From a virus, in IMG/VR virus record IMGVR_UViG_3300023235_000012, positions 62,001 to 126,000 of that record: DNA of 64,000 nucleotides; one strand, written 5' to 3'. A model generated the notes under the pieces. The model was not told the DNA's origin. It saw only the letters and a list, made by a program, of their open reading frames with translations, and did not search any database. Of the stretch, positions 15,620 through 60,439 are shown piece by piece; the stretch's first letter is position 1, and each line of letters begins with the position of its first letter. Position numbers and translations under genes: made by a program.

Positions 15620-16013
15620 TATTCAACACTCCTTTAATTATTTCTCTTGCTTGTTTTGGTTTGATAAGCTGACCATAAAGAGGAGCTGAAAGCTTCTTCG
15701 AAACAATCTTCAAGGCAGATTTTCGTTCGTGCCTGTTTCCATTTTCCATAAGCCATTTATATTCCGCTTGATGAGCTGGAATTTCTTCCTGGATTCTGAA
15801 GACCGGATCTTCGATGTATCGTGCCCACCAACCTTCTACGTCGGGTTTTTGTCGGGCACCATGAATTTCTTCATGGGAGATGAGCTCGGCGGGAATATGA
15901 ATCCTATTCGGATTATAAATTTTGTCTCCCCATGCGAAGATAACAGTTTTAGTAATCGGAAAAACCTTTATCAATTCATCAAAATTTGGAGGATAGTCTT
16001 CAATTATTTTCAT
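15612..16013 (-). CDS. HExxH putative metallopeptidase
   Basis: 133 residues. The motif SHEEIHGARQ is a classic HExxH zinc site, with conserved acidic residues downstream (EEIPAHQAEY) that could supply the third ligand. No signal peptide. It overlaps the ClpS stop by 4 bases (ATGA), so it is translationally coupled to a protease adaptor, suggesting a role in proteolysis. Peptidase activity is inferred from the motif only. Confidence 0.65.
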   Translation of the reverse strand: MKIIEDYPPNFDELIKVFPITKTVIFAWGDKIYNPNRIHIPAELISHEEIHGARQKPDVEGWWARYIEDPVFRIQEEIPAHQAEYKWLMENGNRHERKSALKIVSKKLSAPLYGQLIKPKQAREIIKGVLNND

Positions 16014-16315
16014 TCTTCTACAACTTGTGCCGTCAAAGGAAATTCACTTTGCCGAGCTAACATGATCGTTTCTGCTGCTTTTGTTTCGGCAATTTCCAGT
16101 GAAAAAGTTCCGGCAATGCCTTTACCTTTCTCGTGAATTTCTCGTGTGATGTTGAACGCCTCTGAATCGGTTTTATGGAAAACAAATGATAACAGACCAA
16201 TCACAAATGCCATAGTGGTATAGTCATCATTTAAAAGAATAACATGATAATTCTTTGGTTTTTGAACCTTCGATTTTGTTTTAGTCTTCTTATCTATTAC
16301 TGTTTCATCAGTCAT
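16010..16315 (-). CDS. clpS: ClpS N-degron adaptor
   Basis: 101 residues, the usual ClpS length. A flexible lysine-rich N-terminus (1-21) precedes the folded core: HVILLNDD with the N-degron pocket residues Asn29-Asp30-Asp31, and His61 in REIHEKG, matching E. coli Asn34, Asp35 and His66. ClpS delivers proteins with destabilising N-termini to ClpAP and blocks other ClpA substrates. A phage copy could redirect host proteolysis. Driven by the promoter at 16346-16374 and coupled to an HExxH gene. Confidence 0.92.
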   Translation of the reverse strand: MTDETVIDKKTKTKSKVQKPKNYHVILLNDDYTTMAFVIGLLSFVFHKTDSEAFNITREIHEKGKGIAGTFSLEIAETKAAETIMLARQSEFPLTAQVVEE

Positions 16316-16695: not shown

Positions 16696-17193
16696 TTAGT
16701 CGTCTTTTTTATATTCGGCTCTAAGATCTTCTTTGTACTCTCGAATTAATATTATCTCATTGTTAAACTCTGGAAGATCGTCCACCTTAATGTCTCCGGC
16801 ATCATAACTGAAAGTAAGATGAGGCTTGTAATCTGGAAAATCAGAAGTCGCTTCATGCTCAGTCATAAGTGTTTGATTTCTTTCTTTGATTTCTGGGCAA
16901 TCAATTTTCAAAACAAGACAATTTGGATTTCCTTCGATATGAGTACTAGTCCAGATGTCAAACCTATCGGATTTAGCAGTGATCGGATATATATCCCGTG
17001 CAGCTTTATAGTTTGGGCACGGCTTCTTAGAATAAAGAAGAGTGATGTGTAGCTTCTCTGAAGTTAGTGCATTCTGAATCTTATTTTTATCCATATATTC
17101 TTTGATATGATCCAATGTTTCTTCTGCAAGATGGATTCCGACGAAAGTTCCCGGTTGTTCTGTTTCCATAATCAATAATTCCTTAATCTTCAT
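16696..17193 (-). CDS. Acb1-like 2H phosphoesterase (candidate anti-CBASS)
   Basis: 165 residues with the two catalytic H-x-T motifs of the 2H superfamily: His49-Ile-Thr51 (LHITLLYS) and His125-Leu-Thr127 (PHLTFSY), 76 residues apart. Size, fold order and the LYSKKP context resemble T4 gene 57B product Acb1, which hydrolyses cyclic oligonucleotide signals and so blocks CBASS immunity. The N-terminus MKIKELLIME matches a capsid-targeting-like peptide shared with four late proteins in this window. Other 2H functions (ligase-like or tRNA-related cyclic phosphodiesterase) are not excluded. Confidence 0.75.
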   Translation of the reverse strand: MKIKELLIMETEQPGTFVGIHLAEETLDHIKEYMDKNKIQNALTSEKLHITLLYSKKPCPNYKAARDIYPITAKSDRFDIWTSTHIEGNPNCLVLKIDCPEIKERNQTLMTEHEATSDFPDYKPHLTFSYDAGDIKVDDLPEFNNEIILIREYKEDLRAEYKKDD

Positions 17194-17205
17194 TATTTTT
17201 CCTCG

Positions 17206-17865
17206 TTAACTAACGATACCTAATTCTTCTATGGTCAAGCGATTTCCAAATACAGCACCAGTATCAATAAATCTAGAATTACCAAGTTGTTTGGTTGACT
17301 GTAGCGGGGTATGTCCATGATACGTCATGAAGATATTCTTGATGATAAAGCTGTCATTGTGACTAATTTTTGAACGCGACCATAGAACATCATGTTCATA
17401 GGCAAATGGTTCTTCATGCAATTTTGACCAATCATCTACTGCGGGATCTGCATGCGTAATTCCTATTAAACCAGATAAGGTCTCGACCTCAAAAACTAAT
17501 GGCAAATTCTTAGCATATTCAAAACATCTTCGTATTTTTTCTTGATCAATATTAAGCATCCATTCTCCACCATTATGAACATGATGCTGGATTTTTTGTC
17601 CATATGCAGTCTCATCAATAATAGCGTCCATCATCATTAATTCATGATTCCCCATCACCGAATGAAACCATTCATTTTCTAATAATAACAAACATTCAAA
17701 AGATTTTGGACCCCGATCGACTAAATCACCAACAGAAAACATTCTGTCGACGCTTGAATCAAACGAAATCTCTTGTAATTTTTCGTTGAATAAATCAAGT
17801 TCACCATGGATATCCCCGACGACGAAATCTCGGCCGTCGATGTTTTGTCGAAAACGTTTTATCAT
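17206..17865 (-). CDS. PPP-family protein phosphatase
   Basis: 219 residues, like phage lambda phosphatase. All metal-binding motifs are present: GDIHG, GDLVDRG and GNHE, plus a C-terminal His in TYHGHTP. It removes phosphate from Ser/Thr (sometimes Tyr or His) or small substrates. It is 12 bases upstream of the Acb1-like gene. A phage-encoded phosphatase next to a phage-encoded PrkA kinase region is suggestive but not evidence of a pair. Confidence 0.9.
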   Translation of the reverse strand: MIKRFRQNIDGRDFVVGDIHGELDLFNEKLQEISFDSSVDRMFSVGDLVDRGPKSFECLLLLENEWFHSVMGNHELMMMDAIIDETAYGQKIQHHVHNGGEWMLNIDQEKIRRCFEYAKNLPLVFEVETLSGLIGITHADPAVDDWSKLHEEPFAYEHDVLWSRSKISHNDSFIIKNIFMTYHGHTPLQSTKQLGNSRFIDTGAVFGNRLTIEELGIVS

Positions 17866-34079: not shown

Positions 34080-34107
34080 ATTATAACACATCACGAGAAA
34101 AAGTCAA
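34080..34107 (-). promoter_or_regulatory. sigma70-like promoter
   Basis: Minus-strand TTGACT (34107-34102), 16-base spacer, perfect TATAAT (34085-34080), 31 bases upstream of the gene at 33735-34049. It overlaps the end of the last MORN-repeat gene. Confidence 0.75.
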
Positions 34108-34622
34108 GTGATTAATGCTTTCACTAACTCTAGTTCTTTTCGTCCGCCTGATTCCCAGGCTATTTTCAACGTTGGATTCTCTTCACCCATAGCAGTTGAA
34201 TAGATGAGTTCATTGTATTCCCACCATTCTTCAGCTCCATTTACATATTCAATAGCAGGACCATCTTCACGATGCCGTTCTCCATCTAACCACCATTCTT
34301 TGGACCCATTTACATAATATTCAACAGCCGGACCCTGTTCACGATGACGTTTTCCATTCACATACCAATATTTATTTCCATATTTGGAATAAGCCGCAGG
34401 GCCATCTTCACGATGGAGTTGTCCATTCAGATACCATGCGTTGAATCCATCTGGTGAAATAACAGCCGGACCCTGTTCACGATGCCGTTCTCCATCTAAC
34501 CACCATTCTTCATATCCATCTGGGCAAATAACAGCCGGGGCTTGTTCTCGATGGAGTTGTCCATTCAGACGCCATTCTTTAGATCCATCTTCGCATTCAC
34601 TCATTCTTGATTCATCGATCAT
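34104..34622 (-). CDS. MORN-like repeat protein, copy 5 of 5
   Basis: 172 residues with five 23-residue repeats of the type xEWWLDGERHREQGPAV, then a capping unit ending in NELIYSTAMG and the tail NPTLKIAWESGGRKEL. Repeats of this kind resemble MORN-variant/YwqK-like repeats that form a beta hairpin sheet. Function unknown; cell-surface, scaffold or antitoxin-like roles are known for relatives. ATG overlaps the stop of copy 4. Confidence 0.8.
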   Translation of the reverse strand: MIDESRMSECEDGSKEWRLNGQLHREQAPAVICPDGYEEWWLDGERHREQGPAVISPDGFNAWYLNGQLHREDGPAAYSKYGNKYWYVNGKRHREQGPAVEYYVNGSKEWWLDGERHREDGPAIEYVNGAEEWWEYNELIYSTAMGEENPTLKIAWESGGRKELELVKALIT

Positions 34623-35134
34623 GATATCAAAGCTTTCACCAAATTGAATTCTTCTCGATTATCTGATTCCCAAGCTTTTTTCAACGTGAGATTCTCTTCA
34701 CCCATTTCAGTTGAATAGATGAGTTTATTGTATTCCCACCATTCTTTGGATCCATCTGAGTGTTCAATTGCGGGTCCTTGTTCACGATGCCGTTCTCCAT
34801 TCAGATACCATTCTTCAGCTCCATCTGGCCATATAACAGCCGGACCTTGTTCACGATGGAGTTGTCCATCTAACCACCATGTTTTATATCCATCTGGCCA
34901 TATAACAGCCGGACCTTGTTCACGATGGAGTTTTCCATTCAGATACCATGCTTTATATCCATCTGAGTCTATAATTGCCGGACCATCTTCATTATGGCGT
35001 TCTCCATCTTTCCACCATTCTTTAGTTCCATCTGGTGATATAACAGCAGGGCCTTGTTCACGATGGAGTTTTCCATTCAGATGCCATTCTTTAGATCCAT
35101 CTTCAAGTTCACTCATTCTTGATTCATCGATCAT
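34619..35134 (-). CDS. MORN-like repeat protein, copy 4 of 5
   Basis: 171 residues from the ATG at 35134, which overlaps the stop of copy 3 and gives the N-terminus MIDESRMSELEDG shared with copy 5. The longer frame to 35185 only reads through copy 3. Five repeats plus cap; one repeat has HNED in place of HRED. Tail NLTLKKAWESDNREEF. Confidence 0.78.
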   Translation of the reverse strand: MIDESRMSELEDGSKEWHLNGKLHREQGPAVISPDGTKEWWKDGERHNEDGPAIIDSDGYKAWYLNGKLHREQGPAVIWPDGYKTWWLDGQLHREQGPAVIWPDGAEEWYLNGERHREQGPAIEHSDGSKEWWEYNKLIYSTEMGEENLTLKKAWESDNREEFNLVKALIS

Positions 35135-35973
35135 GATATCAAAGCTTTCACTATATTGAATTCTTCTCTTGAACCAGATTCCCAAGCTTTCTTCAAAATT
35201 GGATTCTCTTCACCCATTTCAGTTGAATAGATGAGTTCATTGTATTCCCACCATTCTTTGGATCCATCTGAGTGTTCAATTGCGGGTCCTTGTTCACGGT
35301 GGAGTTGTCCATTTAACCACCATTCATTGGATCCATTTGATCGTATAACAGCTGGGCCTTGTTCACGATGCCGTTCTCCATTCAGATACCATGCTTTATA
35401 TCCATCTGGTGATATAACAGCAGGGCCTTGTTCACGATGGAGTTTTCCATTTAAGAACCATTCTTTGGATCCATTTGATCGTAAAATTGCCGGACCTTGT
35501 TCACGATGGAGTTGTCCATCTAACCACCATGTTTTATATCCATCTGGCCATATAACAGCAGGGCCATCTTCACGATGCCGTTCTCCATCTAACCACCATG
35601 CTTTATATCCATCTGGCCATATAACAGCAGGGCCATCTTCACGATGCCGTTCTCCATCTAACCACCATGCTTCAGCTCCATCTGGTGATATAACAGCAGG
35701 GCCTTGTTCACGATGGAGTTTTCCATTTAAGAACCATTCTTTGGATCCATTTGATCGTAAAATTGCCGGACCTTGTTCACGATGCCGTTCTCCATCTAAC
35801 CACCATTCTTCATATCCATCTGGGCAAATAACAGCCGGGGCTTGTTCTCGATGGAGTTGTCCATTCAGACGCCATTCTTTAGATCCATCTGGGCAAATAA
35901 CAGCCGGGGCTTGTTCTCGATGGAGTTTTCCATTCAGACGCCATTCTTTAGATCCATCTTCAAGTTCACTCAT
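35131..35973 (-). CDS. MORN-like repeat protein, copy 3 of 5, longest
   Basis: 280 residues, ten repeats plus the cap. Several 69-bp units are nearly identical in DNA, a sign of recent expansion. The expected upstream ATG at 35990 (coupled by ATGA to copy 2) opens only six codons before a TGA: the other copies read AAGAATGAG at this point but here one A is missing, so translation must use the inner ATG at 35973. Tail NPILKKAWESGSREEF. Confidence 0.78.
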   Translation of the reverse strand: MSELEDGSKEWRLNGKLHREQAPAVICPDGSKEWRLNGQLHREQAPAVICPDGYEEWWLDGERHREQGPAILRSNGSKEWFLNGKLHREQGPAVISPDGAEAWWLDGERHREDGPAVIWPDGYKAWWLDGERHREDGPAVIWPDGYKTWWLDGQLHREQGPAILRSNGSKEWFLNGKLHREQGPAVISPDGYKAWYLNGERHREQGPAVIRSNGSNEWWLNGQLHREQGPAIEHSDGSKEWWEYNELIYSTEMGEENPILKKAWESGSREEFNIVKALIS

Positions 35974-35986
35974 CTTGGTTCATTTG

Positions 35987-36571
35987 TCATGAGATCAAAG
36001 CTTTCACCATATTGAATTCTTCTCGATTACCTGATTCCCAAGCTTTTTTTAATATTGGATTCTCGTCACCTATATCAGTTGAATAGATGAGTTCATTGTG
36101 TTCCCACCATTCTTTAGTTCCATCTGAATCTATAACAGCCGGACCTTGTTCACGATGCCGTTCTCCATCTAACCACCATTCTTTGGATCCATTTGATCGT
36201 AAAATTGCCGGACCTTGTTCACGATGGAGTTTTCCATTTAAGAACCATTCTTTAGTTCCACCTGGTGATATAACAGCCGGACCTTGTTCACGATGGAGTT
36301 TTCCATTTAAGAACCATGCTTCAGTTCCATCGGGCCAAATAATAGCCGGACCATCTTCACGATGGAGTTTTCCATTTAAGAACCATTCTTTGGATCCATC
36401 GGGCCAAATAATAGCCGGACCATCTTCACGATGGAGTTCTCCATTCAGACACCATTTTTTGGTTCCATTTGGCCTTTCAACAGCTGGGCCTTGTTCACGA
36501 TGCCGTTCTCCATTCAGACACCATTCTTTAGATCCATCTTCAAGTTCACTCATTCTTGGTTCATTTGTCAT
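35987..36571 (-). CDS. MORN-like repeat protein, copy 2 of 5
   Basis: 194 residues, six repeats (SKEWCLNGERHREQ type) plus cap EHNELIYSTDIG. Its ATG overlaps the stop of copy 1 (36568-36571). Tail NPILKKAWESGNREEF. Confidence 0.8.
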   Translation of the reverse strand: MTNEPRMSELEDGSKEWCLNGERHREQGPAVERPNGTKKWCLNGELHREDGPAIIWPDGSKEWFLNGKLHREDGPAIIWPDGTEAWFLNGKLHREQGPAVISPGGTKEWFLNGKLHREQGPAILRSNGSKEWWLDGERHREQGPAVIDSDGTKEWWEHNELIYSTDIGDENPILKKAWESGNREEFNMVKALIS

Positions 36572-37014
36572 GAGATCAAAGCTTTCACCATATTGAATTC
36601 TTCTCGATCACCTGATTCCCAGGCATTCTTCAATATTGGATTCTCTTCGCCTATATCAGTTGAATAGATGAGTTCATTGTATTCATACCAATATTTATTT
36701 CCATATTTGGAATAAATCGCAGGACCATCTACTCTATGACGTTTTCCATTTAAGAACCATGCTTCATATCCATCGGGCCAAATAATAGCCGGACCTTGTT
36801 CACGATGCCGTTCTCCATTCAGATACCACTCTTTGGACCCAACTTGACCTTCATATGCAGGGTAATATACTCTATGACGTTTTCCATTCAGATACCATTC
36901 TTTAGTTCCATTTGACCGTATAATTGCCGGACCATCTTCACGATGGCGTTCTCCATTCAGACGCCATTTTTTGGTTCCATCTAGATATTCAGTCATTGTT
37001 GGTTCATCGGTCAT
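36568..37014 (-). CDS. MORN-like repeat protein, copy 1 of 5
   Basis: 148 residues, four repeats, two of them diverged (KRHRVYYP, KRHRVDGP), plus cap. First gene of the array. It has no Shine-Dalgarno. Its ATG is 7 bases past the -10 box of the promoter at 37021-37049 and lies within one arm of an inverted repeat, so the mRNA is probably leaderless. Confidence 0.78.
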   Translation of the reverse strand: MTDEPTMTEYLDGTKKWRLNGERHREDGPAIIRSNGTKEWYLNGKRHRVYYPAYEGQVGSKEWYLNGERHREQGPAIIWPDGYEAWFLNGKRHRVDGPAIYSKYGNKYWYEYNELIYSTDIGEENPILKNAWESGDREEFNMVKALIS

Positions 37015-58912: not shown

Positions 58913-60439
58913 TTATCCCTTAATTTCGTCTGAATCGGTTCCGGCAGAACGCAGGCGTTGATATGCTTCACCTTCTTTACCATAATAGATAAAGAGGATT
59001 TTTTGAAGAACTTTTTCTGGAAGTTTCGTCTCTGGAAACTTCTGACTGAATCTGTCTAGCGCGGCGACTTTGATGTCTTTGTCAATTTCCCAACGATCTC
59101 TTTCTAGAGCTTGTGCTACTTTATATTTGTTTATTTCATCTGGACTTGAAAGCTGCAAAGCTTCTTCTGGTCGGAATCCCCAGAGTCTGCGAATAAATTC
59201 ATCTCTTAAATCTTTAACAGACTGAGGATCGTCTCGATATTCTTCAACCAAATCCAACAGACCAACAAAAGATCTGAATTGTTTTATCTCCTGAGTAGAT
59301 GGTTGGGATCCAAATAATTTTTCGAACATTTCTACTGGACGATTGATATATCCAGAAGTAGCAGGATCCATTGCTTTGTAGGTCTTTTTGCCACCTACTG
59401 TAAAATGTGACCCATCAGGAAGTTTTTGTGCTTGCATTTTGTTACGTAAGCCATAAAGAACAGAGAAGGTTAATTCGCTGACGTCTTTCCCTTCTGCTGC
59501 TTTTGGAATTTTTGGAATTGATTTTTTGATTTCTTTCTCTAACTCGGTCTTTTTCTTTTTAAGATCCTTCAATTCTTTGCTTATCTCTTTTACCTTACCT
59601 TTAATTTCTGGTTCGGGTTTTATCTTGTTATCAATAACAAATTTCTCTTTTTCTTCAAAGTCAGTCGAAATTTCTTCAAGCTCTTTGGCTAATGCTTCTA
59701 CTTTCTTTGGATCGACAACGGTTGAAGCTGGAGTTAATTCTACCGAGTCTTTCACCTTTCCTAGAACATTAGCAACCGACTGTAATAGGAATTTATGAAA
59801 TACTCCTTTAATACCTGATTCAATATCTGCCCAATCACTTGAGTGACTAAATTTTGCCCATTCACTCGGTTTATTGTCTTCGAATTCACTTGCCTCAAAA
59901 TCAACCTGTCCAAGGACAGTTCCTCTTTCGTCAGTGTAATCAAATACTGCATTGATTTGTTCACCAATAGCAGAGGCTGCTTTCTTATTGTTACCTACAT
60001 AGATCACTTTATCAGTTATGTTTTTTCCTTCAATTCCTTTTAGAAAATCCCAAAGATCGTTAATAACATCTTTTGGTACAGAAACATCAATGTCGCCTAC
60101 CTTAGGCTTGTGTTTAACATAAAGTTTATCTTCTATGTCAGGATCAAAGAAGCTTTCAGATGAGCCGTTGAAAGCATGTCCAGAAGTGATAACTCTGAAG
60201 TCCGCCCAAATTGGTGTACCTGTCTGCTTTTCAAAGGCTTTGTTTAAATTATCAAACGCCGCTACGAAAGCGTCACGGACGTTAGAGCGGCCATGCTTCG
60301 TCAAGTCCATTTTTTGCGCGTATGCTGGCTCACCTTTCCAGAGCATAATATTTCCATCACTATCAATTGCTCTGGAGTTGCCACCTTCAAACATCTTTTC
60401 TTTTTTCGGTTCAATTTTGAAGAGTTCATATAATCGCAT
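58913..60439 (-). CDS. Nucleotidyltransferase-like late protein
   Basis: 508 residues. N-terminus MRLYELFKIE resembles the targeting peptide but lacks an exact (L/I)-x-E. Residues about 60-200 have TSGHAFNGSSES and KVGDIDVSVP with GQVDFEAS, the same type of pol-beta nucleotidyltransferase as in 55967-57343. A coiled coil of charged residues follows (about 265-320), then a helical C-terminal domain. Late-type AATAAATA is 20-30 bases upstream. Function unknown. Confidence 0.65.
   Translation of the reverse strand: MRLYELFKIEPKKEKMFEGGNSRAIDSDGNIMLWKGEPAYAQKMDLTKHGRSNVRDAFVAAFDNLNKAFEKQTGTPIWADFRVITSGHAFNGSSESFFDPDIEDKLYVKHKPKVGDIDVSVPKDVINDLWDFLKGIEGKNITDKVIYVGNNKKAASAIGEQINAVFDYTDERGTVLGQVDFEASEFEDNKPSEWAKFSHSSDWADIESGIKGVFHKFLLQSVANVLGKVKDSVELTPASTVVDPKKVEALAKELEEISTDFEEKEKFVIDNKIKPEPEIKGKVKEISKELKDLKKKKTELEKEIKKSIPKIPKAAEGKDVSELTFSVLYGLRNKMQAQKLPDGSHFTVGGKKTYKAMDPATSGYINRPVEMFEKLFGSQPSTQEIKQFRSFVGLLDLVEEYRDDPQSVKDLRDEFIRRLWGFRPEEALQLSSPDEINKYKVAQALERDRWEIDKDIKVAALDRFSQKFPETKLPEKVLQKILFIYYGKEGEAYQRLRSAGTDSDEIKG

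Follow-up and report, generated by a model that had tools for sequence, protein, structure and literature searches.

Does a T4-like phage carry its anti-CBASS enzyme into the cell inside the capsid? The question is raised by an acb1-like gene whose product begins with ten residues, MKIKELLIME, that resemble a capsid-targeting sequence (CTS) of phage T4. The gene lies in a window, the whole stretch of 64,000 nucleotides analysed here, taken from a virus record of 137,267 bases that represents a T4-like phage (G000 below). Timing of a counter-enzyme matters here, because CBASS is a signal-based immune system.

The Acb1 enzyme and the segment ahead of its fold

Sequence comparison firmly supports the product as an Acb1 in which all known catalytic positions are kept. 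The protein matches the PF23474 profile over residues 15–163 with 111.4 bits, against a curated cut-off of 27, and its nearest solved sequence by phmmer is the crystal structure of FBB1 Acb1 (7T26, E 1.8e-16). The catalytic tetrad and the aromatic ligand positions have been reported for T4 Acb1 (PMC9117128). H49, T51, H125 and T127, which make up the two H-x-T motifs, align at T4 H44, T46, H113 and T115, while F17, W81, F119 and Y161 stand as ligand-stacking aromatics at T4 Y12, W74, F107 and W147. E155 falls at the position of T4 E141, the glutamate that contacts adenosine; E155 and Y161 were set by hand in the alignment. The sequence-only reading had called the protein Acb1-like, an identity that is now firm, and the open reading frame with both motifs and the MKIKELLIME start is real by its sequence and by alignment with T4 Acb1.

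In T4, the CTS is ten residues long; positions 4 and 7 of the IPIII CTS direct targeting, positions 8 and 10 direct processing, and cleavage follows L/I-x-E (PMC9026906). With I at position 8 and E at position 10, MKIKELLIME agrees with the T4 pattern and the I-x-E site that had been proposed for it. I8-M9-E10 forms the predicted gp21-type cleavage motif, and the predicted mature N-terminus is TEQPG. The tag residues 1–10 precede the enzyme domain. FBB1 Acb1 was crystallised as G8–D152, both free and with a cGAMP analogue (PMC9117128), and G8 of that protein corresponds to the core glycine G15 of the window Acb1. The segment ahead of G15 is thus dispensable for fold and ligand binding, so an enzyme whose tag has been cleaved off should still work.

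The tag would be missing from the protein if translation began at the second in-frame ATG, which encodes M9 and is preceded by AAGGAA, a possible ribosome-binding site. Against this start, GAGG stands 7 nt ahead of the first ATG, and two relatives at 43–47% identity (L003 and L098) start at an upstream ATG of their own, with a tag of this type. We consider initiation at M9 highly improbable.

The NinI-like phosphatase gene, 12 nt upstream, is probably co-transcribed with acb1 and is best seen as context outside the tag system. Other neighbours of acb1 are DNA-metabolism genes. A search for T4 late promoters with TATAAATA returned five sites in the window against 3.05 expected, which is no enrichment, and none in L018, which spans the head gene cluster. 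The phage also encodes ClpS, an adaptor of the host Clp protease (window 16010–16315, minus strand; PF02617, E 9e-26). Separately, a viral contig of 6.9 kb (L002) encodes an identical Acb1 protein.

Table 1. Coordinates of the features discussed; positions refer to the window unless another sequence is named.
Feature	Position	Strand	Basis or remark
acb1-like gene	16696..17193	-	165 aa, ATG start; PF23474 Acb1 E 3.8e-32; 7T26 by phmmer
N-terminal tag MKIKELLIME, residues 1–10, CTS-like	17164..17193	-	tag family of the phage itself; T4 CTS rule
First H-x-T motif, H49-I-T51	17041..17049	-	alignment with T4 Acb1
Second H-x-T motif, H125-L-T127	16813..16821	-	alignment with T4 Acb1
RBS-like GAGG	17201..17204	-	before acb1 ATG; sequence
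NinI-like metallophosphatase gene	17206..17865	-	phrog_246 E 4e-69
Tagged gene MRIKEIISEE, 349 aa	54362..55411	+	no family match
Tagged zeta-toxin-type kinase, MLIKELLVES, 458 aa	55967..57343	-	PF06414 E 1.9e-7
Tagged gene MKIRELTESL, 525 aa	57333..58910	-	phrog_27149; weak citrate-lyase-ligase-type C-terminus
Tagged gene MRLYELFKIE, 508 aa	58913..60439	-	phrog_19290
Tagged ART-PolyVal protein, MRIKEITEE	L015:2038-3786	+	same phage; ART domain from residue 12
Tagged CCA-adding tRNA nucleotidyltransferase, MKIKEIFNLLE	L015:8215-9372	-	same phage; unexpected candidate cargo
Five consecutive tagged ART-like genes of G002	L036:10995-14479		near capsid genes
Portal-Acb1 fusion	L008:502-2679		PF23474
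Portal-Acb1 fusion	L009:8510-10654		PF23474
Portal-Acb1 fusion	L159:2978-5209		PF23474
Portal-Acb1 fusion	L163:8600-10642		PF23474
Portal-Acb1 fusion	L164:3227-5302		PF23474
Portal-Acb1 fusion	L166:1849-3786		PF23474

Proteins that share the tag within the phage

The start of Acb1 recurs on other proteins of the same phage. The pattern M[KRL][IL]xE[LI] opens 8 of 188 genes: acb1, four other window genes and three elsewhere on the 137-kb contig. When residues 2–16 were permuted 500 times, the mean count was 0.19 and the maximum 4, a comparison that is descriptive only because the pattern was written after the sequences had been inspected. Seven of the eight tagged genes carry [LIVFMYTA]-x-E; the exception, at 58913–60439, has none in residues 5–16 and reads MFE at 17–19. 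Clustering N-termini de novo in this phage alone gave a group of 5, no larger than the 4–8 obtained from shuffles.

The four window genes had been described earlier as late genes with N-termini like that of Acb1. The likeness holds and the label "late" is not established: the products are enzyme-like (a zeta-type kinase, a nucleotidyltransferase-like protein) and their genes lie near tail genes. One tagged protein of the phage is an ADP-ribosyltransferase (ART), the class of T4's packaged Alt, which according to its annotation is found in the capsid and accompanies the DNA into the cell. The phage also has T4-type head genes, including gp21 (PF03420, E 2.5e-25), gp23 (E 2.9e-77) and a gp20/portal homologue, and a match to the phrog head maturation protease (E 1e-53).

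Tag dialects across phages

To place the tag in a wider setting, Acb1 homologues were gathered from IMG/VR and phage records and their N-termini were read. They start with a Met-anchored, variable linker segment of 5–20 residues that leads to the core G-[TLI]-[YF]. L/I-x-E occurs in 10 of the 19 extensions of at least 11 residues, against 3.7 in shuffles (p 0.0004, with homologues that are not independent). Among cultured phages, the starts read MLKSFSEFTE followed by A in an Aeh1-like Aeromonas phage, MKLSKFLE followed by S in KVP40, and MNFKEMLPFLIE followed by G in Astolliot.

We then scored each Acb1 against the tag of its own phage in a hold-out test on 14 genomes, in which the largest non-paralogous N-terminal cluster was found without Acb1. 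An earlier form of the clustering was dominated by paralogues (the MSELEDGSKEW repeat genes) and left offsets unaligned; the version used drops paralogues and allows offsets. A paralogous gene run with SELEDGSKEWRLNG repeats occupies window 34104–37014 on the minus strand. Non-member genes that matched the dialect at least as well as Acb1 numbered 0 of 173 in G000, 0 of 518 in G001, 0 of 218 in G002, 0 of 209 in G008 and 4 of 205 in G012. In the other nine phages the de novo cluster was not CTS-like and the Acb1 match was weak or absent, with a best p of 0.04. Fisher's combination across all 14 phages gave 1.3e-6, uncorrected for kinship among the phages. When pure PSSMs were compared in a cross-matrix, the own dialect ranked first only for G001, G002 and G008.

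The dialects themselves differ. MKIKELL in our phage corresponds to MKLTEII in G001, with partners of the MKVSDILKE type; to MQTFKEFLIE in G002, with MKTFKQFILE partners; to MRFSEFCNE in G008, with MKFSEFIDE; and to METFKEFITE in G012, with MSFKQFLTE. The G002 Acb1 reads MIQTFKEFLIE from a GTG, and its near relative L005 reads MQTFKEFLIE from an ATG. The company that these tags keep suggests, as far as sequence can tell, that their bearers are head cargo. In G002, all five tagged genes sit together close to gp23 and gp21. Four of them match ADPrib_exo_Tox; the remaining one shows an ART-like FYHGT start. LYHGT starts, with their ART-like motif, are frequent in the tagged set of G012, whose Pfam matches are weak; one of them belongs to the gene that overlaps the end of acb1. 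The Acb1 of G008 stands within a row of tagged genes. T4 served as a positive control: there the generic pattern gave 12 matches, which include IPI, IPII, IPIII, Alt and gp24 and do not include T4 Acb1.

An ordinary reading of the segment would be that Acb1 is newly made in the cell and that the residues are a native lead-in of the MxFx[DE]F kind (compare T4 MMEFKDFSTG), their CTS likeness being a family trait. Short MxFxDF starts without L/I-x-E are indeed common in enterobacterial Acb1, and the placement of acb1 among DNA-metabolism genes would suit such a protein. However, the segment varies in length and sequence and does so in step with the tag of the phage that carries it, the same tag stands on unrelated proteins including ARTs, L/I-x-E is enriched in the longer extensions, and the segment is absent from the crystals. 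We therefore regard a native lead-in as unlikely but not negligible. Far less probable, in our estimate, is a shared tag whose destination is not the capsid but, say, a compartment, the membrane or a chaperone. The mixed cargo (CCA-adding enzyme, kinase, ART and Acb1) would fit such a destination, as would G008, which is tagged and on whose contig gp21 and gp23 are not detectable; yet the tags resemble the experimentally defined T4 CTS and the gp24 propeptides with their L/I-x-E rule, and ARTs are a packaged class in T4.

Probable delivery with the virion, and known systems

The reading of MKIKELLIME as a CTS is supported by the position of the motif, by a tag family that does not look like chance and includes an ART, and by the hold-out matching in five phages. 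Since Acb1 bears the kind of address label that this phage, like several unrelated ones, puts on proteins apparently loaded into the head, its delivery along with the DNA, rather than synthesis after infection alone, is probable. The proposed course runs as follows. MKIKELLIME, as the phage's own capsid-targeting sequence, would draw a catalytically intact Acb1 into the prohead core, where a gp21-type protease would cut it after I-M-E. The mature enzyme (TEQPG...) would remain in the head, enter the cell with the DNA and, by hydrolysing CBASS cyclic (oligo)nucleotides, clear the signals before new protein is available. Packaging, cleavage, injection, substrate range and benefit are what we infer from these patterns, along with the head direction of the other tagged proteins. 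Judged by its N-terminus, the tagged Acb1 is quite likely packaged in the virion, and we hold the entire chain from tag to signal clearance to be likely as well.

T4 Acb1 has hitherto been thought of as made during infection. With an injected Acb1, the phage would be able to destroy the signal from the first minute on, much as IPI already serves T4 against restriction. More generally, tag dialects would serve as a sequence-only predictor of host-delivered proteins in uncultured T4-like phages, and they make phage head content directly testable. For T4, Acb1 activity is reported to appear only some 15 min after infection (PMC9117128), and because that protein also has no cleavage site, the packaging claim does not transfer to all Acb1. 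A broader scheme, in which Acb1 is recurrently virion-borne (CTS-tagged according to dialect in many T4-like phages, built into the portal in others, with the untagged, late-acting T4 enzyme as a derived exception), is possible but on balance doubtful.

The enzyme itself has close counterparts in T4 Acb1 (gene 57B) and in the Acb1 of Erwinia phage FBB1 (7T26/7T27), which share its 2H phosphoesterase domain, tetrad, aromatics and size. Its N-terminal extension is longer than in either and ends in I-M-E, whereas the T4 start MMEFKDFSTG lacks L/I-x-E. The tag has its parallel in the injected T4 proteins IPI, IPII, IPIII and Alt. In these, as in the window Acb1, cargo proteins that are not otherwise related start with a short tag that closes with [LIVF]-x-E. 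IPI, whose gene adjoins T4 acb1, is injected to counter host defence. The difference lies in the cargo, here a cyclic-nucleotide hydrolase with predicted packaging.

A second parallel is offered by 2H domains that occur as fusions to portal or MuF proteins and have been predicted to be packaged and injected against immune nucleotide signals (PMC5512222, PMC9503650). We found Acb1 domains C-terminal to Mu-type or Phage_portal_3 portal proteins (PF23474, E 1e-32 to 1e-40; Table 1), and one fused to Mu F in L152. Such fusions were seen in the isolates phiPSA1, RHEph04 and Yong-M2-251, and the Pam3 portal (8HDS) matches PF23474 weakly. The sequence-only reading had held delivery of this kind to be undescribed. 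That stands for a CTS on a free-standing Acb1, of which a literature search combining "capsid targeting" and "CBASS", in papers outside subscription, returned no instance; it does not stand for injection as such, already predicted for the portal and MuF 2H domains. In those fusions, too, a domain of the Acb1 family is predicted to travel with the virion, there as part of a structural protein, whereas the window Acb1 stands by itself as an enzyme and bears a tag of the cleavable type. The new element is thus a CTS on a free-standing Acb1, tuned to each phage, within an idea of injection that is partly prefigured.
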